A stretch of DNA of 64,000 nucleotides from the NCBI RefSeq assembly GCF_965638725.1, contig NC_134950.1:19854932-19918931 (forward strand). Reading direction: 5' to 3'. Both the position numbers and the translations under genes were made by a program. Below, piece after piece: positions 1,638 to 61,790 of the stretch. The notes below the pieces were generated by a model. It was not told the origin of the DNA, did not search any database, and was given only the letters and a program-made list of their open reading frames with translations. Each line of letters starts with the position of its first letter. Positions within the stretch are counted from its first letter, which is position 1. The DNA is from Aptenodytes patagonicus. Lineage: Eukaryota; Chordata; Aves; Sphenisciformes; Spheniscidae.

Positions 1638-1720
1638 CTGCATATTAATTTTTTAATGAAAGAAAGCACTGCTGCCAGGCAAGTACAGATTTTAAAGAGT
1701 CGAAACTGTGTTATGGCCAT
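1638..1720 (-). CDS. EBAG9: EBAG9 first coding exon (N-terminus)
   Basis: EBAG9 (RCAS1) is a small Golgi/secretory-vesicle membrane-associated protein that negatively regulates regulated exocytosis, for example lytic granule release. Read on the minus strand, the exon starts at an ATG (1718-1720) in the context ACCATGG and encodes MAITQFRLFK, then a hydrophobic, cysteine-containing stretch ending in LICR. This matches the highly conserved EBAG9 N-terminus, whose hydrophobic segment anchors the protein. The exon runs from 1735, after a pyrimidine-rich TTTTGCAG acceptor, to 1638, before a GTAAAC donor. It stops inside the Arg codon, so the frame continues in the next exon outside the window. 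Fifteen bases of 5' UTR precede the ATG. The upstream exon is non-coding and lies in the CpG island near 9.1 kb. The identification is from family knowledge; the splice signals are seen directly. Confidence 0.93.
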
Positions 1721-1735
1721 GGTGAGAAACCCTTC

Positions 1736-12600: not shown

Positions 12601-12634
12601 GCCTGATGCTGAGAAATTTCCTGGAAAGATGATC
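9621..12634. other. intergenic DNA, EBAG9 to left CR1
   Basis: I see no supported gene, RNA or repeat here. A GC-richer stretch at 10300-10560 holds overlapping open frames without recognisable protein similarity. The region ends exactly where the CR1 3' end and the inverted-repeat arm begin. Confidence 0.5.
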
Positions 12635-14026
12635 CTTAGAATCATAGAATCATTAAGGTTGGAAAAGACCTCTAAGATCATCGAGTCCAACCGTCAACCC
12701 AACACCACCATGCCCACCAAACCATGTCCCTAAGCGCCTTATCTACTCGTCTTTTAAATACTTCCAGGGTTGGTGACTCAACCACTTCCCTGGGCAGCCT
12801 GTTCCAATGTTTCACCACTCTTTCAGTAAAGACATTTTTCCTCACGTCCAATCTAAACCTCCCCTGCCGCAACTTGAGGCCATTTCCTCTTGTCCTATCG
12901 CTTGTTACTTGGGAGAAGAGACCGACACCCACCTCGCTACAACCTCCTTTCAGGTAGTTGTAGAGAGCGATGAGGTCTCCCCTCAGCCTCCTCTTCTCCA
13001 GGCTAAACAACCCCAGTTCCCTCAGCCACTCCTCATAAGACTTGTTCTCCAGACCCCTCACCAGCTTCGTTGTCCTTCTCTGGACATACTCAAGCACCTC
13101 AACGTCCTTCTTGTAGTGAGGGGCCCAAAACTGAACACAGTATTCGAGGTGCGGCCTCACCAGTGCCGAGTAGAGGGGCACGATCACTTCCCTACTCCTG
13201 CTGGCCACACTAGTTCTGATACAGGCCAGGATGCCATTGGCCTTCTTGGCCACCTGGGCACACTGCCGGCTCATGTTCAGCCGGCTGTCGACCAGCACCC
13301 CCAGGTCCTTCTCTGCTGGGCAGCTTTCCAGCCACTCTTCCCCAAGCCTGTAGCGTTGCCTGGGGTTGTTGTGGCTGAAGTGCAGGACCCGGCACTTGTC
13401 CTTGTTGAACCTCATACAGTTGGCCTGGGCCCATCAATCCAGCCTGTCCAGGTCCCTCTGCAGAGCCTTCCTACCCTCGAGCAGATCAACACTCCCGCCC
13501 AACTTGGTGTCGTCTGCAAACTTACTGAGGGTGCACTCGATCCCCTCATCCAGATCATCGATAAAGATATTAAACAAGACCGGCCCCAAAACTGAGCCCT
13601 GGGGAACACCGCTCGTGACCGGCCGCCAACTGGATTGAACTCCATTCACCACAACTCTCTGGGCCCGGCCGTCCAGCCAGTTTTTGACCCAGCGCAGAGT
13701 CCACCTGTCTAAGCTGTGAGCCGCCAGCTTCTCTAGGAGAATGCTGTGGGAGACGGTGTCAAAGGCCTTACTGAAGTCCAGGTAGACCACATCCACAGCC
13801 TTTCCCTCATCCCATCCTGGTCATAGAAGGAGATCAGGTTGGTCAAGCAGGACCTGCCTCTCATGAACCCGTGCTGGCTGGGCCTGATCCCCTGGTTGTC
13901 CCGCTCATGCCTTGTGAGCGCCCTCAAGATGAACCGCTCCATCATCTTCCCCGGCACCGAGGTCAGGCTGACGGGCCTGTAGTTCCCCGCATCCTCCTTC
14001 CGGCCCTTCTGGTAGATGGGCGTCAC
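12635..14026 (-). mobile_element. CR1 LINE, 5'-truncated (left-arm copy)
   Basis: The element is on the minus strand. Its 3' end is at 12635 with the CR1 terminal motif (rc of CTTAGAATCATAGAATC). Its 5' truncation is at 14026, at the RT position GTGACGCCCATC. It encodes the C-terminal part of reverse transcriptase: [58 protein letters not shown] (the FADD catalytic box), and the thumb/C-terminal region ending [20 protein letters not shown] small deletion near 13812, which removes the residues between FYDQ and DEG, breaks the frame, and another frameshift is at about 13430. It is not functional. The same element, inverted, forms the outer end of the right arm. Confidence 0.95.
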
Positions 14027-15214
14027 AAGTTAGAAGATGGATCCTTGGCATAGTGTTAGCATTTGAATTCAAGTCCTCTAAATACTTGAGTATCTAGCAT
14101 GTTGCTTTATAGAAATAGTTATCTACATGGATATGCTTGTGTGTGCATGTCTGCATGCGTATGATTTGCATTTAGGAAAATAGGAGAGAGAGCGCATAGC
14201 ACGGAAAGACAAGGTGATGAAGTTTTGTTGGGGAAAGCATTTAGGAAAGCAAAGGATTTTCTTTCTAGGGCTTGGTGGGTTTTTTTGAGGGGGGAGAATC
14301 ATGAAATTGTTCTTTGTTTCTTCATACTTCGGCATTTGTTAGAAGAATTTCTACTTGTTGGTAAAATGTGAGTTTCCTTTCTTTTTTTCATGCCCTTTGC
14401 CAGATCTAATAATCTCATTTCCAGAATTGCTCTAAAGTTAGGAAAAGAACTTAACAGAAGAAAAACCCTTAAATTAATCATGAATCCTCCTTTTCCCATT
14501 TTAAAACAAATCAATTCAGCCAAAAAGACCTATGTTATAGCTCAAAAACTTCAAAACTCAAGTTCTTATCTGAGCACCTATGTGCCAAGCCCAAGTGGCT
14601 GTTGGAAGTGTTGAGCTCCCAAGATCTGACGAAAATCAATGCCAGCTTCAGAGAAACTTTACTGCCTCAGTAAAATTTGGATTGGGACGTCTAGATCCCA
14701 GTTTTGATGGGGGGGGTGGGGGTGGGGGGAACCAACAGCTGGTTTTGAATATAACTGCGTAACCTCAAATATATAGTCTAGAGGAGAGAGCAATCAAAGA
14801 AGGAAAATAAGGAAGTGAAATAAGTACATTTTTTCATTCTTTATCAAGTTTTCCTGTTTACCTCACGATAGTGAGGAAGCATTTTAAATCATCTTTATCA
14901 TTGCAGCAGTCAGTAGGCAGAAAACAGGCATAGATAAGGCTCTTTCTGATCTTTGTTCAACAGAGGAAGAACGGTTTTCTTCCATCCACTGGCTATCTGA
15001 TGAAACATCTCCTTGCAAAAAATATGTCAACAGGTATTTTGAAATGTAATCTGAACTACTCAAATATTAGCAAACTGATCCAGGATTTGGGCAGAAACTT
15101 ATCTCAGAATGAAATGCGCATGAAAAAGTTAACAAACAGATTAGCTAAATAAGAGCGTTTTTCAATTCAAGTTACAAAAAAAGATTTTGTAATGCTTAAC
15201 TGCTACTGCCACTT
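14027..15214. other. unique intergenic segment in left arm
   Basis: This is non-coding sequence shared with the right arm. It contains a G-rich tract at about 14709-14731 (G8TG5TG6-like) that could form a quadruplex; the complement in the right arm is at about 59681-59702. No gene is supported. Confidence 0.5.
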
Positions 15215-15634
15215 TGTCCTGGTTTCGGCTGGGGCAGAGTTAATTTTCTTCCGAGTAGCTGGTACAGTGCTGTGCTTTGGATTTAGCATGAGAACAATGT
15301 GATAACACACCCATGTTTCAGTTGTTGCTAAGCAGTGTTTATACTAAGTCAAGGACTTTTCAGCTTCCCATGCTCTGCCAGCGACGAGGCGCACAAGAAG
15401 CTGGGAGGGGGCACAGCCAGGACAGCTGACCCACGCTGGCCAAAGGGATATTCCATACCATGTGACGTCATGCTCAGTATATGAACTGGGAGGGGTTGGC
15501 CGGGGGACAGTGATTGCTGCTTGGGAACTGACTGGGCATCAGTCAGCGGGTGGTGAGCGGTTGCATCACTTTTTTTTCCCCCTTTCCCTGGGTTTTTGGT
15601 TTTCTCTCTCTCTCGTTGTTTTACCTTCCATTAC

Positions 15635-15670
<36 letters not shown>

Positions 15671-15822
15671 GTTATTATTTCAAGTATTAAACTGTTCTTA
15701 TCTCAACCCATGAGTTTTCTCACTTTTGCTCGTCCGATTCTCTCCCCCATCCCACCGCGGGGGGGGAGGGCGAGCGAGCAGCTGCATGGTGCTCAGTTGC
15801 CGACTGGGGTTAAACCACGACA
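15215..15822 (+). mobile_element. solo LTR of an avian endogenous retrovirus
   Basis: The LTR begins TGTCCTGGTTTCGG and ends TAAACCACGACA (TG...CA termini). It is flanked by a perfect 5-bp target duplication, CACTT at 15210-15214 and 15823-15827. It carries an ATTAAA-type signal and an (ATT)n microsatellite at 15635-15670. There is no internal retroviral sequence, so this is a solo LTR left by LTR-LTR recombination. The 5-bp duplication and sequence style fit avian ERVL/ERV-like LTRs; the exact family was not assigned. The copy at 58609-59199 in the right arm is the same insertion, duplicated. Confidence 0.92.
15635..15670. repeat. (ATT)n microsatellite inside LTR
   Basis: There are about twelve uninterrupted ATT units. 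The matching tract in the right arm is much shorter (about 58758-58781), one of the clearest length differences between the arms. Confidence 0.9.
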
Positions 15823-18800
15823 CACTTCCATTGTAGATTCTGAGGGCGTTGCATTCCACCCAGTTACACCTGTACTGGGGCTAACAACTTCTGCTTCTGT
15901 TCAACTAAAGCAGCATTTCTCTTTATGGAAACTTCATTACAAGGTTCACCTTGGAAAGTGTTAGAAAATAGCATTTAAGATGCAGCTCAGCTTTTCCAGA
16001 ACAGAGGAGTTAAAAAGCAGAGGACATTTATACAGAGCAGTGAACTGCTCTGGACCTTACATTTTTGGGGATGCCTCTCTTTCTTTTGCAAGGGAGCAGA
16101 AGTATAAACACGGAATATTTATTCTGGTTTTCCTTTCTCAGCTGGAAGAAACTGAGCTGCTGCTGCCAGCTCTGGGGAACGCTCATAGGCGAGTACTGCA
16201 TTTCCAGAAAGTTTGAGTAACTCTGAACTAAAGCAGCTCTTCCAGAAAGGCATCTTGTACTCAGGAAAGCATTGAAAAATGAAGGATCCACCATATTTCT
16301 TCATGGTTTGTTCCAGTGATTAAGCAACTGTACTTTTACAAATGCCATCTTGGTTTAAATTTGAATTTGTCTGACTTCTATTTCCATCTACTCTTTATAC
16401 CTTTCTCTGTCAGATTAAAGCGTCCTTTTTCCTGTTTTCTCCCTGAGGAGGTTCCGACACATCACAACCATATTTTCTATCAGCTTTCTTTTCAATGAAC
16501 TAACACGGGGAGATTTTTAAAGCTTAACTAGCAGTGTTAGCCCTCGATAATTCCTTTTTCTCTTCCAGCACTCCGTTTTTTCCTTCTTCCTTTCAAAATT
16601 GCGAGTCGTACATCATGAGTGTCAATCTCACCAATGCAGCATACAAAGCTAAGGCCAGTGTTAACGCTCATCTCTGTTCATTTGTAGTCAGATCCCATGG
16701 AAGCAGATGATGAGTTTTTCACCATGATTTCCAGTGTCATTGCTTTCCAGGGAATTAAGCGTTGCTTCTGCCCTCTGCAGTAGATGTAAAAGCTCAACAC
16801 TGCGCTGACTTTGTACACAGACAGTTGAAGGGAGCCGGCCAACAGAAGAGGCCAGGTTGCTCTGCCCTTGTCAGTATTCACCCACAGGCTGCCAGCCACA
16901 GATTTTATCAGCAGCAACGTGATACTTTACCTCGGGATCAATGATTGAAAGAATGGATAACCTCTTTCCTAGTAACTCCAACAAACAGAAATCAGCAGGG
17001 ATTTCTTAGAGGGGTATTTTTTATGATCTACTACTAAATCACTTCAATAGTTACAAGGTAAGCATAAAGAACATTTTTAAGAATAATACTGTTCAGGTGG
17101 AAAGCACCATGGTAAATGTGAAATACACTAAAGTGAGATTAGGCCTTTTCTCATTCCAAGCAGGATGCTGATTAAGCTATTCATTACACTAAAGTGATGA
17201 AGTATAAATTATTTATGAGGAAAGGAACTTACTTTTCCTCCTTTTGGGCTCCAGCCATTACAAATTTGGCTCTGCAGCCACAGCTGTTTCCTTTAGAAAC
17301 TGAGTAGCTGAGAAAAACAGGCCAAGTAGAACACAATTCTGATGTCAATTGCAAATATTTAGAAACTTAAAGAAAGCCAGCAGGTAAAAGCATTGGGTAT
17401 TTTTCATTGCTCCAGTGAAAACTCAATCACTAAGTTAAAGCCAAAGTGCCACAATCACTACAATTAAACATATTCCATTATGTGAAAGAAGAGATAAGGA
17501 CATGGGCTAGTGCAGAGCTGTCACCCCAAAGGATCCTCTGGAGAGAAGAACTGAGAAGCAGCAATAATTTTTTAATAGCACTGATGGACTCTTACTGGAT
17601 TTAAACAGACTTCAGACATACTTGTTCTCCAAGTGATAAAGGTCCGTATTGAAACATTATGGCAGTAAACAAGAATGAAGAATAATGGGAAAAAAAGAAT
17701 AGGAAAAAAAAACAATTGAAAAACCTGCGGTGGCAAAATGATAAGGTCCTATCTAAGATGTGAGTCCAAATCTCAGCAGAATTCCTTGCTGATGTTACTG
17801 TTTTATAACATTTTTTGACTGGACTGTGTCAACGTGGAGAAGTATTCACGGGGAAATAATTATCAAACAAATTAGAATCTAACCAGTTTCAGGTCATCGT
17901 GTATTTCGGACCCCTCAGGGCCTGACTAAGGGAGAGGCTAAGCTAACTTTTTTCTATTGGGCTTTCATTGACAGCAGTAGGACTATTCAATTCACTGTCA
18001 CATAGAATTTGGATTAGTGCGCATCCAGGGCTATACCAATTTGCTCTAGCTGTTATCTGACCCATTATTTCAATGTCAATATACAAACTGATTTTATTTT
18101 TTACAGGCTTGCCTACAAAAAGACCAAGCCGAATCAGCTACTAGAGTGTATGTATAGGGCTGCCATCTAAAAGAAGTATATGCCCACAGCTGAGGTAATT
18201 CACATCAATCCTAAATTGTCATTTCTTGGCTATCTAGTTCTGGGCGCTGTCTGCCTTTGTAAGGAACAGATGCATTTCATGACATTGAAAATGCTGACAT
18301 TTTGAAGAAAAAGTAGTTAATGCATCTGTCTGTCTGTATGTGCTATAGGTATGGGACCTTTAGCAGCACAGACCGTCTTATTTTTCAATGTGTGAAAAAA
18401 CCTCAACAGGACAATAACGTTCTGGCTGAATCCTGAATGTTAACGATCGTTTTCGGTACTCAACCAAATGAGTAGAAACTGAGATTGTGCAGAGAACAGT
18501 TTGCAAGACGAGGCCACCCTGTGCATCTGAGAATAAAACCTGCGGTTAAAACAAAAATATGAGGCCGCTAAGGGCACCTGTTTATTCCTCAAGAAACCAT
18601 CTCCCATTGCTGGTATCACCCCAAATCTAGCTTCGTTCTTAGAAGATCCATCAAGATACCTCTGATCCGTCCGCTCCAGCGTCACTGGGATCTGCACGTG
18701 TTGTCAAACATGCTTTTTGCCTAGCTACTGAATGGAGGCTGCACTGGTGTGATTAACAGAACTCACTGCGGGAACATGCGGCGTGGGGCTGCTTACATCA

Positions 18801-19778
18801 GAGAGCAGCCTGCGGTACCCTGAGACGGGAGCCGCTGGTGTGTGTCTGGGAGGCAGTCACTCTCCCCGCTTCCTTCTGGGTCTCTGAATGCTCTTGCATT
18901 TTAAGCCAGTCTGGGCAGAACTTTACAACTTATTTTTGGAAGCATGTGAAAGAGCTGTTTGTCAAGCCTTTAACTCCAGATTGGTCAGCACAACTTTCTG
19001 AAAATTCATACGGCGTTCAGTCTTTATTCTGTGCCAAGCATGAGCTGCCTACAGAGGAGAACTACACCGCACTTAGAGCAACTGCACTTCAACTGTCGTG
19101 TTCTAGATGGAATCTCAAACGTTTACTCATCAGACAACAAGCCTTCCACAGTTTGATGTATGAATACCTTAAGTCTGGCCCTCTCCCACCACAGTGAAGG
19201 AAATCAAGTGGAAGCTCTGGAGCAAGATACTGTGTGCCCATGACACGCTGCAGCCATTCATCAAGCAAAGACTTTTAAAGTCACATGCAAAATATCGAAG
19301 AACATCAGCAAAGACCTCTAAGAACAAAAGAGGAAGAACACGGAGGATATTTTACAGCCTCGCCATATATTAAACATACACTCAGCTAGGGTGTATTCTG
19401 GTAGATTGTGTGAAGAAACGTTCTGTACTCCATCAGTTACTAGCACTGGGTAAATCAAGCCGAGAATGAAGAGCTCGGAATAAATATACGTATATGCAAT
19501 TCAAACAGAACATACTCATTGCAAATGAAGTGGCAATCAAACATTGAATTAACATACTCAATGCAAATAAACGTTTTAAAAAAACAAGATGGACTTTTAA
19601 GTGGAAGAAATAATTTTCTTCTTTCTGACATCCACCATTATTTAACAGTGTAGAGACAATGACATACAGCGAGTATGCTCAAACTGGCACGAAGGTAGAT
19701 TTAAAACAGTACAGCACAGGCCCTCAGAAGGAGTATCTGTATACTGCAGCAGATCCCTGATCCTGGCTCCTGCGATGT
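15823..19778. other. unique intergenic segment in left arm (distal part)
   Basis: This non-repeat sequence is duplicated almost exactly at 54664-58608. The only longer open frame is the 119-codon one listed separately. Nothing resembling a known exon was recognised. It is probably neutral intergenic DNA that was carried along in the duplication. Confidence 0.5.
18838..19197 (+). other. 119-codon open frame, duplicated, unknown
   Basis: This open frame begins MCVWEAVTLP and ends KSGPLPPQ. It has no signal peptide, membrane segment or motif I recognise. The identical predicted protein occurs on the minus strand at 55244-55603 in the right arm. Identity is expected from the recent duplication and is not by itself evidence of selection. 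There is no promoter or splice context. It is most likely a chance open frame and is kept only because it is the longest non-CR1 frame in the passenger sequence. Confidence 0.15.
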
Positions 19779-36073: not shown

Positions 36074-37708
36074 GTAAGAATAAACCTTTTTTAAAAATTA
36101 CTGAATTTGAAAAGGTAGGGGATAGGTAAGATAGAAAATATGGCAAGGAGGATTCGAATGCAAAAACTGGGGGAAGCTGTTGCCAGGAAGACAGGTAGAT
36201 TAACAAAAATGCAGTTCAACAGGAAGGATGAAAGGATTTTAAGTGAGGTTTCTGACATCTTTGCATTAATAGTATTGCATTAGTATTGAAATAGTATTGC
36301 ATCTGCTTCCATTCTGGGGAAGACAGACATATGGTGACAAGCTGAAGAAAAGAGTAGACACTTTTCTAGTTGCCGGCTGTTTCTCCCCTATGTTACTTGA
36401 TGTTTGTCTGTTTGCTAATTTGAAAATCCAGTCATAGATATAAGGAGAGAAAGAAGCTGTACACATTAGAATTAGAAATGAAAGCCTTTATATACTAATA
36501 GGTTAATCTGGGCATCACTCATTGGAAGCAAAAAGATGCTGGTGGTCCTGCGCAAACTTGAAATAGAGTGTAAGTAAGCTAGACCAAGTCTGAAAAACAT
36601 GACGGTTTTCTGCTTTTATACTGATGTTCTTAAGTAGTCAAACTTTTTATTTCTTTTGAGCCTTTTTGCTGCATGGATGCACTAGATTCCATTACAAAGT
36701 CATTCATCATTCCAGAGGGTAAAGGACATGGCTCTATGGACACCGTGTTTCTGGTACATGCTTGGTCATTAAGGAATAGAAGATTGTGTTACTGGCAGTG
36801 ATTTTGCAGCTGTGACAATGTCTTCTTAGCTTTGAATGTATAATTTAGAGTAAGATTATATCTCTGACAATTTTGACTTGTATCCTGTTGAGCAATAAAT
36901 ATATGCTTACAGTTTTTCACCACAAAGTAGGATTTTTTTTTTTTGTTTTCATTACTTTGATAACTCAATCCTTTTGACTTATCAAGTATAGCTTCTTAAA
37001 TGTTCATCTATGCAGAAGGAAAAAAAAAAAGTCCGGAATTGTATCCAGTTGTTAGCTAATTTAAATAGCGATGTTTCGTTCATGAACAGTTATTTGGTTA
37101 ACATTTTATGTTGAGAAAGGTCATAACATAATAGATACTCCATTCTCATAATAAGATTTGCTCTGGCAGTAAATGATTCAGGGCTGCTGTTTGATTTTTA
37201 CATAAAACAACGTTAATTTTATATAACAAGTCAGTTGAATTCTGCTATGAGATTAATATAATTCCAGAAAATACAAAATGTGTCGCATACTAATACTTTC
37301 CTGCTTTCTATAGCTGTTCCTGTTTCATTCATATATTTTGGTGTGGCAGCTTCTTCCAGTTACTGTAACCTGACTTTTGGAATCATGTTTGTTGACATAA
37401 GATTAATTAGACTGTGTGAGTGTTAAATAGAAGGAATCTTTAAGTGAGTTGGGTGGAGGAGAAAGTCTTTAACCTTTTATTACTCAAATGATTCAGAGTG
37501 ACTGTATACTGCTGAGATGTTTAAAGTTTATGGAGTCTCTTCATACTGTTCTTTCTAGACTCTACAGAATGTTTTGTTCTGCAGTCCACAGACTACTGGC
37601 CTAAACATATTTCATTGCTATAACTGACTACATGTAATTTTCAGGTTTGGAAAGGAAAATATCCATTGTCATGCTACCAAGGAATTTGACTTGTAACCCA
37701 GAAGGGAC

Positions 37709-38307
37709 TGTTGTGGTTTAACCCTAGCCAGCAACTAAGCACCACACAGCCACTCACTCACTTCCCCCCCGGTGGGATGGGGGAGAGAATCGGAAGGGTA
37801 AAAGTGAGAAAACTCGTGGGTTGAGATAAAGACAGTTTAATAGGTAAAGCAAAAGCCGCGCACGCAAGCAAAGCAAACCAAGGAATTCATTCACCCCTTC
37901 TCATCGGCAGGCAGGTGTTCAGCCATCTCCAGGAAAGCAGGCCTCCATCACGCGTAACGGTTACTTGGGAAGACAAAACACCGTAACTCCAAATTTCCCC
38001 CCACCGTCCTTCTTCTTCCCCCAGCTTTATATGCTGAGCATGACGTCATATGGCGTGGAATATCCCTTTGGTCAGTTGGGGTCAGCTGTCCCAGCTGTGT
38101 CCCCTCCCAACTCCTCGTGCACCCCCAGCCTACTCGCTGGTGGGGTGGGGTGAGAGGCAGAAAAGGCCTTGACTCTGTGTAAGCACTGCTCAGCAATAAC
38201 TAAAACATCCCTGTATTACCAACACTGTTCCCAGCAAATATCCAAAACATAGCCCCATACTAGCTACTATGAAGAAAATTAACTCTACCCCAGCCAAAAC
38301 GAGCACA
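37709..38307 (-). mobile_element. solo LTR, same family as 15215-15822
   Basis: On the plus strand it starts TGTTGTGGTTTAACCC and ends AAAACGAGCACA; the element is in minus orientation. The flanks are GGGAC (37704-37708) and GGAAC (38308-38312), a 5-bp target duplication with one mismatch. It has the family's internal landmarks (TTCATTCACCCC, the GACGTCATATGG segment and the TTAACTCTACCCC terminus). There is no internal retroviral sequence. Confidence 0.9.
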
Positions 38308-47732: not shown

Positions 47733-48002
47733 GTAAGTTGTGCAATAACATATTTAAGAATTGAACATCTACCAAATAATTCTCACTCTTACATTTCTTA
47801 TGAGAATTGCACGTATGTAATGTTGTAAAGAATTAAGCTTTAAATCATAACTGTATCACTGATACAGGATTGTGTTAAAGTATAAAAATCATTGGTTTTT
47901 ATGCTAATGACTAAATTAGTGATTTCTTTATGCACAAAATACCTAAAATTCAGGTGTTTGAAAGGGAGCAGCATTTTGACTGAAGAAGAATCTGTCTAAG
48001 TA

Positions 48003-49563
48003 GAATCACAGAATCATTGAGGTTGGAAAAGACCTCTAAGATCGAGTCCAACCGTCAACCTAACACCACCATGTCCACTAAACCATGTCCCTAAGTGCCT
48101 CATCTACTCGTCTTTTAAATACCTCCAGGGATGGGGACTCCACCACTTCCCTGGGCAGCCTCTTCCAATGTTTCACCACTCTTTCAGTAAAGACATTTTT
48201 CCTCACGTCCAATCTAAACCTCCCCTGCCGCAACTTGAGGCCATTTCCTCTTGTCCTATCGCTTGTTACTTGGGAGAAGAGACCAACACCCACCTCGCTA
48301 CAACCTCCTTTCAGGTAGTTGTAGAGAGCAATGAGGTCTCCCCTCAGCCTCCTCTTCTCCAGGCTAAACAACCCCAGTTCCCTCAGCCGCTCCTCAGAAG
48401 ACTTGTTCTCCAGACCCTTCACCAGCTTCGTTGTCCTTCTCTGGACATACTCCAGCACCTCAACATCCTTCTTGTAGTGAGGGGCCCAAAACTGAACACA
48501 GTATTCGAGGTGCGGCCTCACCAGTGCCGAGGACAGGGGCACAATCACTTCCCTACTCCTGCTGGCCACACTCTTTCTGATACAGGCCAGGATGCCATTG
48601 GCCTTCTTGGCCACCTGGGCACACTGCCGGCTCATGTTCAGCCGGCTGTCGACCAGCACCCCCAGGTCCTTTTCCGACAGGCAGCTTTCCAGCCACTCTT
48701 CCCCAAGCCTGTAGCGCTGCATGGGGTTGTTGTGGCCGAAGTGCAGGACCCGGCACTTGGCCTTGTTGAACCTCATACAGTTGGCCTGGGCCCATCGATC
48801 CAGCCTGTCCAGGTCCCTCTGCAGAGCCTTCCTACCCTCGAGCAGATCAACACTCCCGCCCAACTTGGTGTTGTCTGCAAACTTACTGAGGGTGCACTCG
48901 ATCCCCTCATCCAGATCATCGATAAAGATACTGAACAAGACCGGCCCCAGTACTGAGCCCTGGGGAACACCGCTTGTGACCAGCCGCCAACTGGATTGAA
49001 CTCCATTCACCACAACTCTCTGGGCCCGGCCGTCCAGCCAGTTTTTCACCCAGCGCAGAGTACACCTGTCTAAGCCGTGAGCCGCCAGCTTCTCTAGGAG
49101 AATGCTGTGGGAGACGGTGTCAAAGGCCTTGCTGAAGTCCAGGTAGACCACATCCACAGCCTTTCCCTCATCCACTAGGCGGGTGACCTGGTCATAGAAG
49201 GAGATCAGGTTGGTCAAGCAGGACCTGCCTCTCATGAACCCGTGCTGGCTGGGCCTGATCCCCTGGTTGTCCCGCTCATGCCTTGTGAGCGCCCTCAAGA
49301 TGAACCGCTCCATAATCTTCCCCGGCACCGAGGTCAGGCTGACAGGCCTGTAGTTCCCCGCATCCTCCTTCCGGCCCTTCTTGTGGATGGGTGTCACATT
49401 GGCAAGCCTCCAGTTGTCCGGGACCTCCCCTGATTAGCCAGGACTGCTGATAAATGATGGAGAGCGGCTTGGCGAGCACCTCCGCCAGCTCCCTCAGCAC
49501 TCTTGGGTGGATCCCATCTGGCCCCATAGACTTGTGAGTGTCCAGGTGGCGTAGCAGGTCATT
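48003..49563 (-). mobile_element. CR1 LINE, 5'-truncated, long RT frame
   Basis: Its 3' end is at 48003. On the minus strand a 439-codon frame (48078-49397) runs through much of the RT domain: [75 protein letters not shown] and the CR1 C-terminus. The catalytic box reads FADN instead of FADD, so the enzyme would be dead even if expressed. The upstream frame ([19 protein letters not shown]) is separated by a frameshift near 49430. The 5' truncation point abuts a run of GTAAAA repeats (49564-49600). Confidence 0.95.
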
Positions 49564-49600
49564 GTAAAAAAAGTAAAAGTAAAAAGTAAAAGTAAAAGTG
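49564..49600. repeat. (AAAAGT)n-like simple repeat at CR1 5' junction
   Basis: The tract is GTAAAAAAAGTAAAAGTAAA and similar units, directly against the 5' truncation of the CR1. It may be pre-existing target sequence or filler created at the junction. Confidence 0.7.
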
Positions 49601-51090: not shown

Positions 51091-51688
51091 TGTGCTGGTT
51101 TTGACTGGAATAGAGTTAATTTTCTTCATAGTAGCTAGTACGGGGCTGTGTTTTGGACTTGTGCTAGAAACAGTGTTGATAACACAGGGATGCTTTCGTT
51201 ACTGCTGAGCAGGGCTTACACAGAGTCAAGGCCTTTTCTGCCTCTCACCCCACCCCACCAGCGAGTAGGCTGGGGGTGCACGAGGAGTTGGGAGGGGACA
51301 CAGCTGGGACAGCTGACCCCAACTGGCCAAAGGGATATCCCATGCCATATGACATCATGCTCAGCATATAAAGCTGGGGGAAGAAGGAAGGGGGGACATT
51401 AGGAGTGATGGCGTCTTGTCTTCCCAAGTAACTGTTACGCATGATGGAGCCCTGCTTTCCTAGAGATGAGATGGCTGAACACCTGCCTGCCGATGGGAAG
51501 GAGTGAATGAATTCCTTGGTTTGCTTTGCTTGTGTGCGGGGCTTTTGCTTTACCTATTAAACTGTCTTTATCTCAACCCACGAGTTTTCTCACTTTTACC
51601 CTTCCGATTCTCTCCCCCATCCCACTGTGAGGGGAGTGAGCAAGCGGCTGTGTGGTCCTTAGTTGCCGGCTGGGGTTAAACCACGACA
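51091..51688 (+). mobile_element. solo LTR, same family as 15215-15822
   Basis: It starts TGTGCTGGTTTTGACTGG and ends TAAACCACGACA, with a perfect 5-bp target duplication GCCTT (51086-51090 and 51689-51693). It carries the shared ATTAAACTGTCTTTATCTCA segment near the 3' part. There is no internal sequence. With the minus-oriented copies at 37709 and 58609, it forms inverted LTR pairs on either side of NUDCD1 exons 3 and 4. Confidence 0.92.
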
Positions 51689-52457
51689 GCCTTTCAATAT
51701 TTCAGTAATATTTATGTACTCTGCCTACCTAGTCCCATCCAAATATGGATGGACTTTTCCAAACCATATACATAAAAATTCAAAAACTTCTAACCTTAGC
51801 TCCTCCTAAACATGAATATTATACTCCTTCATTGAGTTATAGGTTTTTGTTTCTTACTCCGCTTCATAAAGCTTTATAGAGAAGGAGAATTGAATCTCTT
51901 TGTAGAGATAGTAGCCAAATAAAGAGAGCCCCCCTCCCCTCAGTACTGGTTGATTAAATACCGGCAGCAATGCACTGGACCTTTTTATCTTCTTATTTGC
52001 ATATGTCAAGGTCTACAAAGATTTTCAGGACGTTGTGGTGTCTAGAGAGGGCCTTGGTGAAATGCCTACATTTTCATCTTGAGTGTAAGACTGTTTTCCC
52101 CAGTTGATATGCTGTGTTGGTGGATCCTGTTCCATTCATCAGTTGTTGTACCTCTACTTATTGTAGTAGTAAACAGCCATAATGCAGACGGTTTTGTGGA
52201 TCTTTGTGTAATGGGCCCTTATAATGATTTTATACTATAAACAATAATAAATAAAAGTATTTCAGAACAGTGGCTTGATAGCCAAGGAAGGAGGAACTGG
52301 AAATGTATTAAATTCATGGATTCATATTGGCAGAGAGGTTTGTGGGAAGCAAACTTTAACTGATTTGACATTCACTGAAGCCTTTCACTGCTTTCTGAGA
52401 AAGAGCAAGACTTCCAGTTTTAACTGACTGACTTTTTACTACAATTTTGTTTTCTAG

Positions 52458-52854: not shown

Positions 52855-54663
52855 AGGAAGAAGTGGCGGGGCTCATTGAGAGGGCTTTAAACTAGGTTCG
52901 AAGGGGGAAGGGGATAAAACCAGGCTCACTAGAGATGAGCCTAGGGGTGGCGTGCCGATGCCGGGGGTGAAATCGATAGCCCAATTGAAGTGCATCTACA
53001 CCAATGCACGCAGCATGGGTGGCAAACAGGAGGAGCTGGAAGCCATTGTGCAGCGGGAGAGATATGACTTAGTCGCCATCACAGAAACGTGGTGGGGTGT
53101 CTCTCATGATTGGAGTGCTGCAGTGGATGGCTATAGACTCTTCAGAAGGGACAGGCGAGGAAGGAGAGGCGGTGGGGTGGCCCTGTATGTTAGGGAGTGT
53201 TTCGATTGTCTAGAGCTCAACGATTGTGATGATGATACGGTTGAGTGTTTATGGGTAAGGATGAGGGGGAAGGCCAGCGAGGCAGATATCCTGCTGGGAG
53301 TCTGTTGTAGACCACCCAACCAGGATGAAGGGGTGGATGAAGCATTCAAGCGGCTGGCAGAAGTCTCTCAATCGCTAGCCCTTGTTCTCGTGGGGGACTT
53401 CAACTTCCCGGACATCTGCTGGAAATACAACACGGCAGAGAGGAAGCAGCCTAGGAGGTTCCTGGAGTGTGTGGAAGACAACTTCCTGACACAGCTGGTA
53501 AGTGAGCCTACCAGGGGAGGTGCCTCACTTGACCTGCTGTTTACTAACAGAGAAGGACTGGTGGGAGATGTGGTGGTCGGAGGCCATCTTGGGCTTAGCG
53601 ACCATGAAATGGTAGAATTCTCGCTTCTTGGTGAAGTAAGGAGGGGGGACAGCAAAACCACAACCATGGACTTCCGGAGGGCGGACTTTGGCCTGTTCAG
53701 GACGTTGGTTGAGAGACTCCCTTGGGAGACGGTCCTGAAGGGCAAAGGGGTCCAGGAAGGCTGGACGATCTTCAAGAAGGAAGTCTTAAAGGCGCAGGAG
53801 CAGGCTGTCCCTGTATGCCGTAAGAAGAACAGGCGGGGAAGACGACCGGCCTGGCTGAACGAGGAGCTCTTGCTGGGACTCAGGAAAAAAAGGAGAGTTT
53901 ACCACTTCTGGAAGAAGGGGCAGGCGACTCAAGAAGAGCACAGGGATCTCGTTAGGTTGTGCAGAGAAGAAATGAGAAAGGCAAAAGCCCAGCTAGAACG
54001 CAATCTGGCCACTGTCGTTAGAGACAACAAAAAAAGTTTTTACAAATATATTAATGACAAGAAGAGAGCCAAGGAGAATCTCCATCCTTTATTGGATGTG
54101 GAGGGGAACATTGTCACCGAGGATGAGGAAAAGGCTGAGGTACGCAATGCCTTCTTTGGCATTAAGTCAGACGAGTTATCCTCAGGGTACTCGGCCCCCC
54201 GAGCTGGAAGACAGGGACGGCGAGCAGGATGAACCCCCCATAATCCAAGAGGAAGCAGTCAACGACCTGCTACGCCACCTGGACGCTCACAAGTCTATGG
54301 GGCCGGATGGGATCCACGCGAGAGTGCTGAGGGAGCTGGCGGAGGTGCTCGCCAAGCCACTCTCCATCATTTATCAGCAGTCCTGGTTAACGGGGGAGGT
54401 CCCGGATGACTGGAGGCTTGCCAATGTGACGCCCATCCACAAGAAGGGCCGGAAGGAGGATGCGGGGAACTACAGGCCTGTCAGCCTGACCTCGGTGCTG
54501 GGGAAGATTCTGGAGCGGTTCATCTTGAGGGCGCTCACAAGGCATGTGCAGGACAACCAGGGGATCAGGCCCAGCCAGCACAGATTCATGAGAGGCAGGT
54601 CCTGCTTGACCAACCTGATCTCCTTCTATGACCAGGTGACCCGCCTAGTGGATGAGGGAAAGG
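52855..54663 (+). mobile_element. CR1 LINE, ORF2 5' half, interrupted at 54663
   Basis: The CR1 is on the plus strand, starting within a few bases of 52855 in the sequence ahead of ORF2 (GGGCTTTAAACTAGG). It contains the endonuclease and the first part of RT, up to [13 protein letters not shown]. The expected continuation ([13 protein letters not shown]) is missing: after AAAGG at 54663 the sequence jumps directly into the inverted-repeat arm (ACATCGCAGG). CR1 resumes 5.7 kb later, at 60384. The last 238 bp (54426-54663) correspond to 60384-60621, so that stretch is present twice. Confidence 0.95.
52952..54232 (+). pseudogene. CR1 ORF2 endonuclease domain frame
   Basis: This 426-codon frame encodes an APE-type endonuclease: YTNARSMGGKQEELE (N-terminal Asn), VAITETWWG (catalytic Glu), LVGDFNFPDICWK (Asp/Asn), SLDLLFTN, and LGLSDHEMVEF (the SDH motif). 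It then enters the linker before RT, with NARRPAW-like RRGRRPAWLNEELL. A frameshift near 54180 moves the RT part into another frame (54054-54660), and RT is then cut off by the passenger. All endonuclease signature motifs look present, so the element is fairly young, but ORF2 as a whole is not functional. Confidence 0.85.
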
Positions 54664-55243
54664 ACATCGCAGGAGCCAGGATCAGGGATCTGCTGCAGTA
54701 TACAGATACTCCTTCTGAGGGCCTGTGCTGTACTGTTTTAAATCTACCTTCGTGCCAGTTTGAGCATACTCGCTGTATGTCATTGTCTCTACACTGTTAA
54801 ATAATGGTGGATGTCAGAAAGAAGAAAATTATTTCTTCCACTTAAAAGTCCATCTTGTTTTTTTAAAACGTTTATTTGCATTGAGTATGTTAATTCAATG
54901 TTTGATTGCCACTTCATTTGCAATGAGTATGTTCTGTTTGAATTGCATATACGTATATTTATTCTGAGCTCTTCATTCTCAGCTTGATTTACCCAGTGCT
55001 AGTAACTGATGGAGTACAGAACGTTTCTTCACACAATCTACCAGAATACACCCAACTGAGTGTATGTTTAATATATGGCGAGGCTGTAAAATATCCTCCG
55101 TGTTCTTCCTCTTTTGTTCTTAGAGGTCTTTGCTGATGTTCTTCGATATTTTGCATGTGACTTTAAAAGTCTTTGCTTGATGAATGGCTGCAGTGTGTCA
55201 TGGGCACACAGTATCTTGCTCCAGAGCTTCCACTTGATTTCCT

Positions 55244-55603
55244 TCACTGTGGTGGGAGAGGGCCAGACTTAAGGTATTCATACATCAAACTGTGGAAGGC
55301 TTGTTGTCTGATGAGTAAACGTTTGAGATTCCATCTAGAACACGACAGTTGAAGTGCAGTTGCTCTAAGTGCGGTGTAGTTCTCCTCTGTAGGCAGCTCA
55401 TGCTTGGCACAGAATAAAGACTGAACGCCGTATGAATTTTCAGAAAGTTGTGCTGACCAATCTGGAGTTAAAGGCTTGACAAACAGCTCTTTCACATGCT
55501 TCCAAAAATAAGTTGTAAAGTTCTGCCCAGACTGGCTTAAAATGCAAGAGCATTCAGAGACCCAGAAGGAAGCGGGGAGAGTGACTGCCTCCCAGACACA
55601 CAC
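55244..55603 (-). other. 119-codon open frame, copy of 18838-19197
   Basis: It encodes the same predicted protein as the left-arm frame, without any amino acid change. It lies on the antisense strand of NUDCD1 intron 4. There is no family match and no expression signal; it is probably non-coding. Confidence 0.15.
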
Positions 55604-58600
55604 CAGCGGCTCCCGTCTCAGGGTACCGCAGGCTGCTCTCTGATGTAAGCAGCCCCACGCCGCATGTTCCCGCAGTGAGTTCTGTTAATCACACCAGTGC
55701 AGCCTCCATTCAGTAGCTAGGCAAAAAGCATGTTTGACAACACGTGCAGATCCCAGTGACGCTGGAGCGGACGGATCAGAGGTATCTTGATGGATCTTCT
55801 AAGAACGAAGCTAGATTTGGGGTGATACCAGCAATGGGAGATGGTTTCTTGAGGAATAAACAGGTGCCCTTAGCGGCCTCATATTTTTGTTTTAACCGCA
55901 GGTTTTATTCTCAGATGCACAGGGTGGCCTCGTCTTGCAAACTGTTCTCTGCACAATCTCAGTTTCTACTCATTTGGTTGAGTACCGAAAACGATCGTTA
56001 ACATTCAGGATTCAGCCAGAACGTTATTGTCCTGTTGAGGTTTTTTCACACATTGAAAAATAAGACGATCTGTGCTGCTAAAGGTCCCATACCTATAGCA
56101 CATACAGACAGACAGATGCATTAACTACTTTTTCTTCAAAATGTCAGCATTTTCAATGTCATGAAATGCATCTGTTCCTTACAAAGGCAGACAGCGCCCA
56201 GAACTAGATAGCCAAGAAATGACAATTTAGGATTGATGTGAATTACCTCAGCTGTGGGCATATACTTCTTTTAGATGGCAGCCCTATACATACACTCTAG
56301 TAGCTGATTCGGCTTGGTCTTTTTGTAGGCAAGCCTGTAAAAAATAAAATCAGTTTGTATATTGACATTGAAATAATGGGTCAGATAACAGCTAGAGCAA
56401 ATTGGTATAGCCCTGGATGCGCACTAATCCAAATTCTATGTGACAGTGAATTGAATAGTCCTACTGCTGTCAATGAAAGCCCAATAGAAAAAAGTTAGCT
56501 TAGCCTCTCCCTTAGTCAGGCCCTGAGGGGTCCGAAATACACGATGACCTGAAACTGGTTAGATTCTAATTTGTTTGATAATTATTTCCCCGTGAATACT
56601 TCTCCACGTTGACACAGTCCAGTCAAAAAATGTTATAAAACAGTAACATCAGCAAGGAATTCTGCTGAGATTTGGACTCACATCTTAGATAGGACCTTAT
56701 CATTTTGCCACCGCAGGTTTTTCAATTGTTTTTTTTTCCTATTCTTTTTTTCCCATTATTCTTCATTCTTGTTTACTGCCATAATGTTTCAATACGGACC
56801 TTTATCACTTGGAGAACAAGTATGTCTGAAGTCTGTTTAAATCCAGTAAGAGTCCATCAGTGCTATTAAAAAATTATTGCTGCTTCTCAGTTCTTCTCTC
56901 CAGAGGATCCTTTGGGGTGACAGCTCTGCACTAGCCCATGTCCTTATCTCTTCTTTCACATAATGGAATTGTAGTGATTGTGGCACTTTGGCTTTAACTT
57001 AGTGATTGAGTTTTCACTGGAGCAATGAAAAATACCCAATGCTTTTACCTGCTGGCTTTCTTTAAGTTTCTAAATATTTGCAATTGACATCAGAATTGTG
57101 TTCTACTTGGCCTGTTTTTCTCAGCTACTCAGTTTCTAAAGGAAACAGCTGTGGCTGCAGAGCCAAATTTGTAATGGCTGGAGCCCAAAAGGAGGAAAAG
57201 TAAGTTCCTTTCCTCATAAATAATTTATACTTCATCACTTTAGTGTAATGAATAGCTTAATCAGCATCCTGCTTGGAATGAGAAAAGGCCTAATCTCACT
57301 TTAGTGTATTTCACATTTACCATGGTGCTTTCCACCTGAACAGTATTATTCTTAAAAATGTTCTTTATGCTTACCTTGTAACTATTGAAGTGATTTAGTA
57401 GTAGATCATAAAAAATACCCCTCTAAGAAATCCCTGCTGATTTCTGTTTGTTGGAGTTACTAGGAAAGAGGTTATCCATTCTTTCAATCATTGATCCCGA
57501 GGTAAAGTATCACGTTGCTGCTGATAAAATCTGTGGCTGGCAGCCTGTGGGTGAATACTGACAAGGGCAGAGCAACCTGGCCTCTTCTGTTGGCCGGCTC
57601 CCTTCAACTGTCTGTGTACAAAGTCAGCGCAGTGTTGAGCTTTTACATCTACTGCAGAGGGCAGAAGCAACGCTTAATTCCCTGGAAAGCAATGACACTG
57701 GAAATCATGGTGAAAAACTCATCATCTGCTTCCATGGGATCTGACTACAAATGAACAGAGATGAGCGTTAACACTGGCCTTAGCTTTGTATGCTGCATTG
57801 GTGAGATTGACACTCATGATGTACGACTCGCAATTTTGAAAGGAAGAAGGAAAAAACGGAGTGCTGGAAGAGAAAAAGGAATTATCGAGGGCTAACACTG
57901 CTAGTTAAGCTTTAAAAATCTCCCCGTGTTAGTTCATTGAAAAGAAAGCTGATAGAAAATATGGTTGTGATGTGTCGGAACCTCCTCAGGGAGAAAACAG
58001 GAAAAAGGACGCTTTAATCTGACAGAGAAAGGTATAAAGAGTAGATGGAAATAGAAGTCAGACAAATTCAAATTTAAACCAAGATGGCATTTGTAAAAGT
58101 ACAGTTGCTTAATCACTGGAACAAACCATGAAGAAATATGGTGGATCCTTCATTTTTCAGTGCTTTCCTGAGTACAAGATGCCTTTCTGGAAGAGCTGCT
58201 TTAGTTCAGAGTTACTCAAACTTTCTGGAAATGCAGTACTCGCCTATGAGCGTTCCCCAGAGCTGGCAGCAGCAGCTCAGTTTCTTCCAGCTGAGAAAGG
58301 AAAACCAGAATAAATATTCGTGTTTATACTTCTGCTCCCTTGCAAAAGAAAGAGAGGCATCCCCAAAAATGTAAGGTCCAGAGCAGTTCACTGCTCTGTA
58401 TAAATGTCCTCTGCTTTTTAACTCCTCTGTTCTGGAAAAGCTGAGCTGCATCTTAAATGCTATTTTCTAACACTTTCCAAGGTGAACCTTGTAATGAAGT
58501 TTCCATAAAGAGAAATGCTGCTTTAGTTGAACAGAAGCAGAAGTTGTTAGCCCCAGTACAGGTGTAACTGGGTGGAATGCAACGCCCTCAGAATCTACAA

Positions 58601-58608
58601 TGGAAGTG

Positions 58609-59199
58609 TGTCGTGGTTTAACCCCAGTCGGCAACTGAGCACCATGCAGCTGCTCGCTTGGCCCTCCCCCCCCGCGGTGGGATGGGGGAGAGAATCGGAC
58701 GAGCAAAAGTGAGAAAACTCATGGGTCGAGATAAGAACCGTTTAATACTTGAAATAATAACATAATAATAATAATAATAGTAATGGAAAGTAAAACAACG
58801 AGAGAGAGATAAAACCAAAAACCCAGGGAAAGGGGGAAAAAAAAGTGATGCAACCGCTCACCACCCGCTGACTGATGCCCAGTCAGTCCCCAAGCAGCAG
58901 TCACTGTCCCCCGGCCAACCCCCCCCAGTTCATATACTGAGCATGATGTCACATGGTATGGAATATCCCTTTGGCCAGTTGGGGTCAGCTGTCCTGGCTG
59001 TGCCCCCTCCCAGCTTCTTGTGCGCCTCGTCGCTGGCAGAGCATGGGAAGCTGAAAAGTCCTTGACTTAGTATAAACACTGCTTAGCAACAACTGAAACA
59101 TGGGTGTGTTATCACATTGTTCTCATGCTAAATCCAAAGCACAGCACTGTACCAGCTACTCGGAAGAAAATTAACTCTACCCCAGCCGAAACCAGGACA
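58609..59199 (-). mobile_element. solo LTR, duplicated copy of 15215-15822
   Basis: On the plus strand it starts TGTCGTGGTTTAACCCC and ends AACCAGGACA. It carries the same target duplication as the left copy (AAGTG at 58604-58608 and 59200-59204), showing that the LTR inserted before the segment was duplicated. The AAT microsatellite is shorter than in the left arm. Confidence 0.93.
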
Positions 59200-60383
59200 A
59201 AGTGGCAGTAGCAGTTAAGCATTACAAAATCTTTTTTTGTAACTTGAATTGAAAAACGCTCTTATTTAGCTAATCTGTTAACTTTTTCATGCGCATTTCA
59301 TTCTGAGATAAGTTTCTGCCCAAATCCTGGATCAGTTTGCTAATATTTGAGTAGTTCAGATTACATTTCAAAATACCTGTTGACATATTTTTTGCAAGGA
59401 GATGTTTCATCAAATAGCCAGTGGATGGAAGAAGACTGTTCTTCCTCTGTTGAACAAAGATCAGAAAGAGCCTTATCTATGCCTGTTTTCTGCCTACTGA
59501 CTGCTGCAATGATAAAGATGATTTAAAATGCTTCCTCACTATCGTGAGGTAAACAGGAAAACTTGATAAAGAATGAAAAAATGTACTTATTTCACTTCCT
59601 TATTTTCCTTCTTTGATTGCTCTCTCCTCTAGACTATATATTTGAGGTTACGCAGTTATATTCAAAACCAGCTGTTGGTTCCCCCCACCCCCACCCCCCC
59701 CATCAAAACTGGGATCTAGACGTCCCAATCCAAATTTTACTGAGGCAGTAAAGTTTCTCTGAAGCTGGCATTGATTTTCGTCAGATCTTGGGAGCTCAAC
59801 ACTTCCAACAGCCACTTGGGCTTGGCACATAGGTGCTCAGATAAGAACTTGAGTTTTGAAGTTTTTGAGCTATAACATAGGTCTTTTTGGCTGAATTGAT
59901 TTGTTTTAAAATGGGAAAAGGAGGATTCATGATTAATTTAAGGGTTTTTCTTCTGTTGAGTTCTTTTCCTAACTTTAGAGCAATTCTGGAAATGAGATTA
60001 TTAGATCTGGCAAAGGGCATGAAAAAAAGAAAGGAAACTCACATTTTACCAACAAGTAGAAATTCTTCTAACAAATGCCGAAGTATGAAGAAACAAAGAA
60101 CAATTTCATGATTCTCCCCCCTCAAAAAAACCCACCAAGCCCTAGAAAGAAAATCCTTTGCTTTCCTAAATGCTTTCCCCAACAAAACTTCATCACCTTG
60201 TCTTTCCGTGCTATGCGCTCTCTCTCCTATTTTCCTAAATGCAAATCATACGCATGCAGACATGCACACACAAGCATATCCATGTAGATAACTATTTCTA
60301 TAAAGCAACATGCTAGATACTCAAGTATTTAGAGGACTTGAATTCAAATGCTAACACTATGCCAAGGATCCATCTTCTAACTT

Positions 60384-61790
60384 GTGACGCCCATCTACCA
60401 GAAGGGCCGGAAGGAGGATGCGGGGAACTACAGGCCCGTCAGCCTGACCTCGGTGCCGGGGAAGATGATGGAGCGGTTCATCTTGAGGGCGCTCACAAGG
60501 CATGAGCGGGACAACCAGGGGATCAGGCCCAGCCAGCACGGGTTCATGAGAGGCAGGTCCTGCTTGACCAACCTGATCTCCTTCTATGACCAGGTCACCC
60601 GCCTAGTGGATGAGGGAAAGGCTGTGGATGTGGTCTACCTGGTCTACCTGGACTTCAGTAAGGCCTTTGACACCGTTCCCACAGCATTCTCCTAGAGAAG
60701 CTGGTGGCTCACGGCTTAGACAGGTGTACTCTTTGCTGGGTCAAAAACTGGCTGGACGGCCGGGCCCAGAGAGTTGTGGTGAATGGAGCTAAATCCAGTT
60801 GGCGGCCAGTCACGAGTGGTGTTCCCCAGGGCTCAGTTTTGGGGCCGGTCTTGTTCAATATCTTTATCGATGATCTGGATGAGGGGATCGAGTGCACCCT
60901 CAGTAAGTTTGCAGACGACACCAAGTTGGGCGGGAGTGTTGATCTGCTCGAGGGTAGGAAGGCTCTGCAGAGGGACCTGGACAGGCTGGATCGATGGGCC
61001 CAGGCCAACTGTATGAGGTTCAACAAGGCCAAGTGCCGGGTCCTGCACTTGGGCCACAACAACCCCATGCAGCGCTACAGGCTTGGGGAAGAGTGGCTGG
61101 AAAGCTGCCTGTCAGAAAAGGACCTGGGGGTGCTGGTCGACAGCCGGCTGAACATGAGCCGGCAGTGTGCCCAGGTGGCCAAGAAGGCCAATGGCATCCT
61201 GGCCTGTATCAGAACTAGTGTGGCCAGCAGGAGTAGGGAAGTGATTGTGCCCCTGTACTCGGCACTGGTGAGGCCGCACCTCGAATACTGTGTTTAGTTT
61301 TGGGCCCCTCACTACAACGACATTGAGGTGCTGGAGCGTGTCCAGAGAAGGGCAACGAGGCTGGTGAGGGGTCTGGAGAACAAGTCTTCTGAGGAGCGGC
61401 TGAGGGAACTGGGGTTGTTTAGCCTGGAGAAGAGGAGGCTGAGGGGAGACCTCATCGCTCTCTACAACTACCTGAAAGGAGGTTGTAGCGAGGTGGGTGT
61501 CGGTCTCTTCTCCCAGGTAACAAGCGATAGGACAAGAGGAAATGGCCTCAAGTTGCGGCAGGGGAGGTTTAGATTGGACGTGAGGAAAAATGTCTTTACT
61601 GAAAGAGTGGTGAAACATTGGAACAGGCTGCCCAGGGAAGTGGTTGAGTCACCAACCCTGGAAGTATTTAAAAGACGAGTAGATAAGGCGCTTAGGGACA
61701 TGGTTTGGTGGGCATGGTGGTGTTGGGTTGACGGTTGGACTCGATGATCTTGGAGGTCTTTTCCAACCTTAATGATTCTATGATTCTAAG
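60384..61790 (+). mobile_element. CR1 LINE 3' part (right-arm copy)
   Basis: The CR1 begins at GTGACGCCCATC (60384), the same truncation point as the left-arm CR1, and ends with ATTCTATGATTCTA and AG at 61790. It encodes [20 protein letters not shown] up to the CR1 C-terminus ([19 protein letters not shown]). Frame breaks are a 9-bp tandem duplication (GGTCTACCT) near 60640, a lost base near 60680 and an in-frame TAG at about 61294. Unlike the left copy, it keeps the residues [10 protein letters not shown]. It is in the same orientation as the interrupted CR1 at 52855-54663. Confidence 0.95.

Follow-up and report, generated by a model that had tools for sequence, protein, structure and literature searches.

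A CR1 Element Split by an Inverted 5.7-kb Copy of Unique DNA in a NUDCD1 Intron of Aptenodytes patagonicus, and Its Probable Origin in CR1-Templated Repair

Introduction

In 5′ transduction, or chimeric retrotransposition, by a long interspersed element (LINE), flanking DNA and the 3′ end of the LINE move together. Coupled homologous and nonhomologous repair is said to have been described by Richardson and Jasin in 2000, and the original description of duplication-dependent strand annealing (DDSA) is reportedly that of Fiston-Lavier et al. in 2007. In DDSA, known from the fly, a broken repeat is mended by using an ectopic copy of itself as the template for synthesis, and the flank of the copy is duplicated; among the scars are short tandem repeats and gaps with microhomology at their borders (PMC3276153, PMC3420103). 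We analyzed a 64,000-nucleotide window (the whole stretch, G000:C2:19854932-19918931) of the 1.35-Gb genome of Aptenodytes patagonicus, in which a LINE of the CR1 family in an intron of NUDCD1 is split by a 5.7-kb passenger of unique DNA that also occurs between EBAG9 and ENY2. The most likely route to this arrangement is a DDSA variant of synthesis-dependent repair; the route is a known one, and its record is unusually readable here.

Related events have been reported elsewhere. Pace et al. (2009) found repair-mediated duplications in interrupted transposons, including six events in chicken; the donors of the accepted events were no more than 5 kb away, and these events measured at most 619 bp; candidates with more distant donors were up to 3,424 bp long, and retrotransposition tails were seen in 17 of the 29 interchromosomal ones examined (PMC2671141). 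Using engineered mammalian reporters, Hartlerode et al. (2016) followed long-tract gene conversion on the sister chromatid with non-canonical termination; each cloned joint, in a limited sample, had microhomology or added bases, and one clone showed homologous template switching (PMC5104497). Searches of an open-access library for CR1-linked duplication or ectopic recombination in birds, and for CR1 transduction or template jumping, yielded no matching case among the papers listed, which does not prove absence from print.

The Inverted Copy and Its Source

The window holds two arms of an inverted repeat. Between EBAG9 and ENY2 is the left arm (L, 12635-19778); ~35 kb away, the NUDCD1 intron that follows the fourth coding exon contains the right arm (R, 54664-61790). 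In a single alignment, L 12635-19778 and R 61790-54664 share 98.4% identity over 7164 columns; indels of 9, 18, and 4 bp distinguish the two. The initial annotation had described R as an inverted copy of L that splits a CR1, which alignment and a genome search confirm, and had traced the passenger from the EBAG9–ENY2 interval into NUDCD1 intron 4, with which gene placement by tblastn (queries: human proteins) agrees. The names CR1 and LTR (long terminal repeat) are presumptive for these repeats and do not come from a repeat library.

With an LTR-like repeat left out, the unique part differs between L and R at only 10 of 5117 sites (6/3937 and 4/1180). A whole-genome search with 54664-58600, in which all five candidates were scored, returned two full-length matches, R and L, and three fragments of 116–154 bases at 71%. 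Similarly, the flank 59203-60382 was matched by R and L only among the best 40 of 981 candidates scored, the other 38 rows covering just the CR1 portion of the query. The unique passenger occurs exactly twice in the genome.

L is taken as the source because only L keeps both copies of the target-site duplication of the left CR1. This duplication is imperfect, with a longest exact match of 7 bases, extended by eye with one indel allowed; still, TSD-like copies (target-site duplication, TSD) stand on both sides of the CR1 only at L, and R has the copied 5′ one alone. Sequence identity, being symmetric, would equally allow the reverse direction, with the intron as the source and the EBAG9–ENY2 interval as the acceptor, but the distribution of the TSD-like copies, and a left CR1 piece at R that breaks off within the reverse transcriptase and lacks a CR1 3′ end, leave that direction a close to negligible probability.

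The Split CR1 and Its Junction

Each genome search with a CR1 segment scored the best 40 of 1315–5518 candidates, unless other counts are given, and "scored" copies are meant in this sense throughout. For the family comparisons, between 11 and 68 copies were available depending on the segment; these had been chosen for their similarity to R or L and are, therefore, a close and not a random sample; one row (L022) was dropped as a short match, others as matching less than 95% of the segment length, and L070 as having the same sequence as L038.

Pfam matches place an endonuclease (Exo_endo_phos) and the start of RVT_1 to the left of the passenger, and RVT_1 again to its right. The 5′ half of the split element (R5) starts at 52860, as do 34 of the 40 other rows in its genome search, and its last base corresponds to 60621 in CR1 coordinates. 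It differs from the family majority by 3.3% (11 copies) and 3.9% (28 copies), and its closest other scored copy is 96% identical over 52860-54500; for the 264 bp that adjoin the junction, the best value is 98%. Because of this distance from the family majority, and a best other scored copy of 96%, R5 appears to have aged long before the duplication, whose passengers are 0.2% apart. As in DDSA, the resident repeat is older (R5 3.3–3.9% and, further to the right, segment B 2.2%, versus 0.2% between the passengers).

CR1 sequence is repeated on both sides of the passenger, as claimed before, although over 239 and not 238 bp (Table 1). The junction reads …GAGGGAAAGG/ACATCGCAGG at the end of R5, compared with …GAGACTGGA/ACATCGCAGG at L and …GAGGGAAAGG/CTGTGG in uninterrupted CR1. 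Its earlier description as blunt and free of microhomology holds on a strict reading; the alternative is a GG microhomology with the loss of one A.

The Mosaic 3′ Part of the Right CR1

To the right of the passenger, the initial annotation had seen a CR1 3′ part ending at the true CR1 3′ end. The end is indeed reached, but by L/R differences this part is a mosaic of three segments, L-like (A), independent (B), and L-like again (C). We segmented the L/R differences over 59203-61788 with a two-state model whose rates were chosen after seeing the data; it placed a copied-to-independent switch at 60595 (lnL +46) and a return at 61398 (lnL +11), with a third break adding only +1.5. A laxer setting left the first two switch places unchanged (lnL gains 39, 10, and 0.8).

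Segment A differs from R5 at 10 of 212 sites and from L at none. This identity is indecisive alone, the nearest other family copy being just 0.94% different, but it counts because segment A is continuous into the unique passenger.

Segment B is another matter. Its L/R distance (34/784; 4.2–4.3%) is about the median pairwise distance among 55 family copies (4.35%), and the R sequence lies 2.2% from the family majority. No recent donor was found among the best 40 of 4164 candidates for L's segment B and 40 of 3943 for R's, the best other copy being 97% identical in each case. Recent conversion from a third CR1 was, therefore, set aside as the origin of segment B, since no other copy exceeded 97% among those scored, with the proviso that a donor may have been missed. 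Because R5 and B are old and without a near-identical source among scored copies, the simplest view is that both are left over from one long-resident CR1.

In segment C, L and R are only 0.51% apart, and the 2278 pairs among 68 family copies, one doubled locus having been removed, are all at least 1.79% apart. At the rate of segment B, 17 differences would be expected where two are seen (P ~6e-6). The best copy outside the L/R pair reaches 97% among scored genome hits. Two variants common to L and R, 61655 A and 61707 G, occur in 0 of 70 other rows, and 61685 A in four of 70 (L070 is still counted twice in these 70 rows). The AG that L and R share after the CR1 end (61789-61790) was considered as a sign of copying into the flank of L and rejected, several other listed copies carrying AG as well.

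The switch from A to B is poorly placed because an L-private 10-bp deletion and an R-private 9-bp tandem repeat fall there, and it can be resolved only to ~60543-60705. The junction at 54663, which is 60621 in CR1 coordinates, falls within this interval. If R5 and B once adjoined each other, the break between them must thus have occurred where the switch is seen, the signature that repair predicts; a donor-to-resident switch near the break is also a likeness to DDSA. The L-private deletion lies at 13813-13816, the CR1 position equivalent to 60595-60607. The R-private tandem repeat may be a scar of re-invasion, judging from its place near the break, and a 9-bp gap bounded by AAT lies at 56966 in R; both may be scars of the DDSA type, or the products of ordinary slippage or deletion.

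A third CR1 of the same family, at 48001-49564 and in the orientation of the left CR1, is 95.4% identical to L. Four rare variants, at the equivalents of 61337-61359, are found in both this copy and L and may mark a short conversion tract or a sub-lineage.

Table 1. Features of the window, with coordinates from its first base.
Feature	Coordinates	Strand	Basis or remark
R5, 5′ half of the resident CR1 (endonuclease, start of reverse transcriptase), ending at the junction	52860-54663	+	Pfam, genome search
Putative end-joining junction, resident CR1/passenger	54663/54664		blunt, or GG microhomology with 1-nt loss
Passenger, inverted copy of 19778-14028	54664-60382	+	LTR-like repeat within, at ~58601-59202
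Passenger source, EBAG9–ENY2 intergenic	14028-19778	-
CR1 direct repeat, 239 bp	54425-54663 and 60383-60621	+	alignment; 95.4% identical
Segment A, CR1 copied from L	60383-60594	+	0/212 L/R differences; continuous with copied unique passenger
Segment B, resident non-L CR1	60595-61397	+	34/784 differences from L
Segment C, CR1 3′ end, L-like again	61398-61790	+	2/393 differences
9-bp tandem duplication private to R, near the inferred break	60631-60639	+	in 0/31 family copies
Left CR1, 5′-truncated, putative template for homologous invasion	12635-14027	-
5′ TSD copy of the left CR1, AAGGATCCATCTT	14034-14046	-
3′ TSD copy of the left CR1, AAGGATCATCTT	12626-12637	-	absent at R
Copied 5′ TSD copy of the left CR1, AAGGATCCATCTT	60364-60376	+
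EBAG9, residues 1-28, first coding exon	1720-1637	-	tblastn
ENY2 exons	26402-21385	-	tblastn
NUDCD1, residues 1-221, four coding exons	27140-52661	+	tblastn

Retrotransposition and Assembly Error as Unlikely Explanations

The mosaic bears directly on two other explanations. Chimeric CR1 retrotransposition, the second of two models in the initial annotation, would start from an ENY2 read-through RNA, primed at the left CR1 3′ end, with a jump to a second CR1 RNA at 54663. Read-through from ENY2, a minus-strand gene, would cross 19778 to 12635 in the CR1 sense, and both the L-like segment C and an arm that ends at the CR1 3′ end fit this scheme. However, it predicts L-derived sequence as far as the CR1 3′ end, and the 3′ part as a whole does not come from the source, L-like though segment C is: ~800 bp in segment B are not from L, and a donor above 97% was not found among the scored hits. 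Likewise, R5 is old and mutated (best other scored match 96%), and no source locus for the second CR1 RNA was found among the best 40 candidates for each piece (96% for R5, 97% for B), where a missed or lost source is possible. Old resident CR1 pieces and a non-L patch are features that set this locus apart from LINE 5′ transduction. The closest pairs of family copies differ by 1.84% in segment B and 1.79% in segment C; for the first part of R5 the figure is 1.27%, and for segment A, which is short, 0.47%. These distances suggest that CR1 was inactive at the time of the 0.2% duplication, although the sample was not selected for young copies. Finally, no TSD was found at R, as is often so for CR1 insertions. 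Together, these observations make the retrotransposition model unlikely.

Near-identical arms are hard to assemble, and a misjoin at CR1 repeats might be suspected. Yet the window lies in a single 171-Mb contig and contains no N, the 54663/54664 junction joins two sequences without useful homology, and neither the three indels between the arms nor the mosaic CR1 in R is a product expected of a misjoin; an assembly artefact is, therefore, a very unlikely explanation, more so than retrotransposition.

Probable Repair Templated by the Left CR1

We favor an event, with a probability of roughly 0.74, in which a break in a resident CR1 was repaired on the left CR1 with run-on copying and end-joining, amended to account for the mosaic. 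An old CR1 copy would have been resident in the NUDCD1 intron beforehand, and a double-strand break would have struck it at coordinate 54663/60622, perhaps with the loss of some bases just 3′ of that point. The right-hand broken end, which is CR1 sequence, would then have paired with the inverted, 5′-truncated CR1 in the EBAG9–ENY2 interval and been extended, synthesis running beyond the 5′ truncation of the left CR1 for ~5.7 kb into unique DNA. The new strand would finally have come free and been joined to the broken end on the left, with which it shared no useful homology. What can be read from the sequence is that the copy is inverted, that L gives way to resident sequence near the break coordinate, that both resident pieces are old, and that L is the source; the break itself, the strand invasion, and the end-joining are what we infer. 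Run-on copying from the break to the truncation of the left CR1 must leave a CR1 direct repeat, which accounts for the 239 bp found on both sides of the passenger. This is the first model of the initial annotation, supported by old CR1 on both sides of the break, passenger-side CR1 that comes from L, and the TSD at L, while the second is disfavored by the old CR1 segments, the lack of a near-identical scored source, and the non-L stretch; neither foresaw the L-like last 393 bp.

Those 393 bp would represent a conversion tract, made by patchy heteroduplex repair in the same event or by later conversion between the arms, in either direction. Patchy heteroduplex repair, template switching of the nascent strand, and later arm conversion are indistinguishable here for segment C. 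A single event is a tentative possibility, in which synthesis, switching templates by homology, would have used the left CR1 (61790-61398), then the resident CR1 (61397-60595), then the left CR1 and its flank (60594-54664), before end-joining. If so, the locus would preserve, from a natural germline event, the trace of template switches made while a long tract was being synthesized on dispersed repeats that are ~96% identical. If the arms convert each other, 0.2% may understate the age of the duplication.

Template switching at a stalled fork, of the type called fork stalling and template switching or microhomology-mediated break-induced replication (FoSTeS/MMBIR), would use the same templates in the same order as the repair model, with no two-ended break: a fork stalled in the intronic CR1 would switch by homology to the left CR1, copy 5.7 kb, and return without homology. 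Homology at one end alone and a nonhomologous return fit this scheme, and the A/B/C mosaic resembles repeated switching between two CR1 templates. A return near the departure coordinate (54663 = 60621, resolved to ~160 bp), however, is a coincidence for a fork and expected of one break, which leaves fork switching rather unlikely, if less so than retrotransposition. A simple crossover between the inverted CR1s was rejected, as it would invert and not duplicate.

Several observations weigh against repair on the left CR1 as we favor it. The likeness of segment C to L means that a second conversion tract must be added to the scheme, judging from the L/R differences, and the L-like last 393 bp fit retrotransposition better than they fit plain, unamended repair. 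The agreement between switch and break would arise by chance about once in nine (an interval of ~162 of 1408 bp). Since the family copies were chosen by similarity and only 11 of them reach into its first part, R5 may come from a CR1 sub-lineage that is poorly sampled, and the model does not account for the excess of differences in the LTR-like part (13/601). A TSD for the R CR1 was looked for and not found, CR1 insertions often being without a clear one. Lastly, the junction has neither a clear microhomology nor an inserted base, unlike the joints cloned from the mammalian reporters (PMC5104497).

In other respects, the locus resembles the described systems. As in DDSA, the acceptor break would lie inside a repeat that is also present at the donor, CR1 being found at both loci and non-L CR1 flanking the insert; unlike DDSA in the fly, the present case has a CR1 LINE in a bird as its source of homology, an inverted copy, and a CR1 tract that forms a mosaic of three parts (PMC3276153, PMC3420103). 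As in the events of Pace et al., DNA with one other genomic location splits an old transposable element (TE) copy, but the arms here are ~35 kb apart, the unique DNA measures 5.7 kb, and the homologous end is TE to TE (PMC2671141). Similarly, homology at one end, kilobases of copied DNA, and an end joined without homology recall the reporter products (PMC5104497). The earlier remark that a LINE would move unique DNA here in an unusual manner is overstated, since the LINE would serve as homology and such repair has been described (PMC3276153, PMC2671141, PMC5104497).

Implications and Further Features of the Window

From one genome alone, the locus shows diverged LINE copies probably templating repair, by which kilobases of unique DNA were carried into the intron of a gene. 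Repair and retrotransposition can be told apart, with no need of an outgroup, by the step in identity between copied and resident LINE at the break coordinate, a test that could be used genome-wide in birds. The resulting 7-kb inverted repeat, with arms ~35 kb apart, spans ENY2 and the first four coding exons of NUDCD1; later inversions or conversions might arise from it. Recombination between the L and R arms would invert a block of ~35 kb and split NUDCD1.

The LTR-like repeat within the passenger (58601-59202 in R, 15212-15830 in L) differs between the arms at about eleven times the rate of the rest, seven of its 13 differences falling within 58888-58981. Conversion from another copy was rejected as the cause of this excess, as no near donor was found among the scored genome hits, either for the whole LTR-like stretch of L or R (best other copies 88–89%) or for the 111-bp LTR-like tract of L (best besides R, 91–92%). 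A second inverted LTR-like pair, 37701-38307 and 51091-51695, lies ~12.8 kb apart with 90% identity, and is just 67–69% like the repeat in the passenger.

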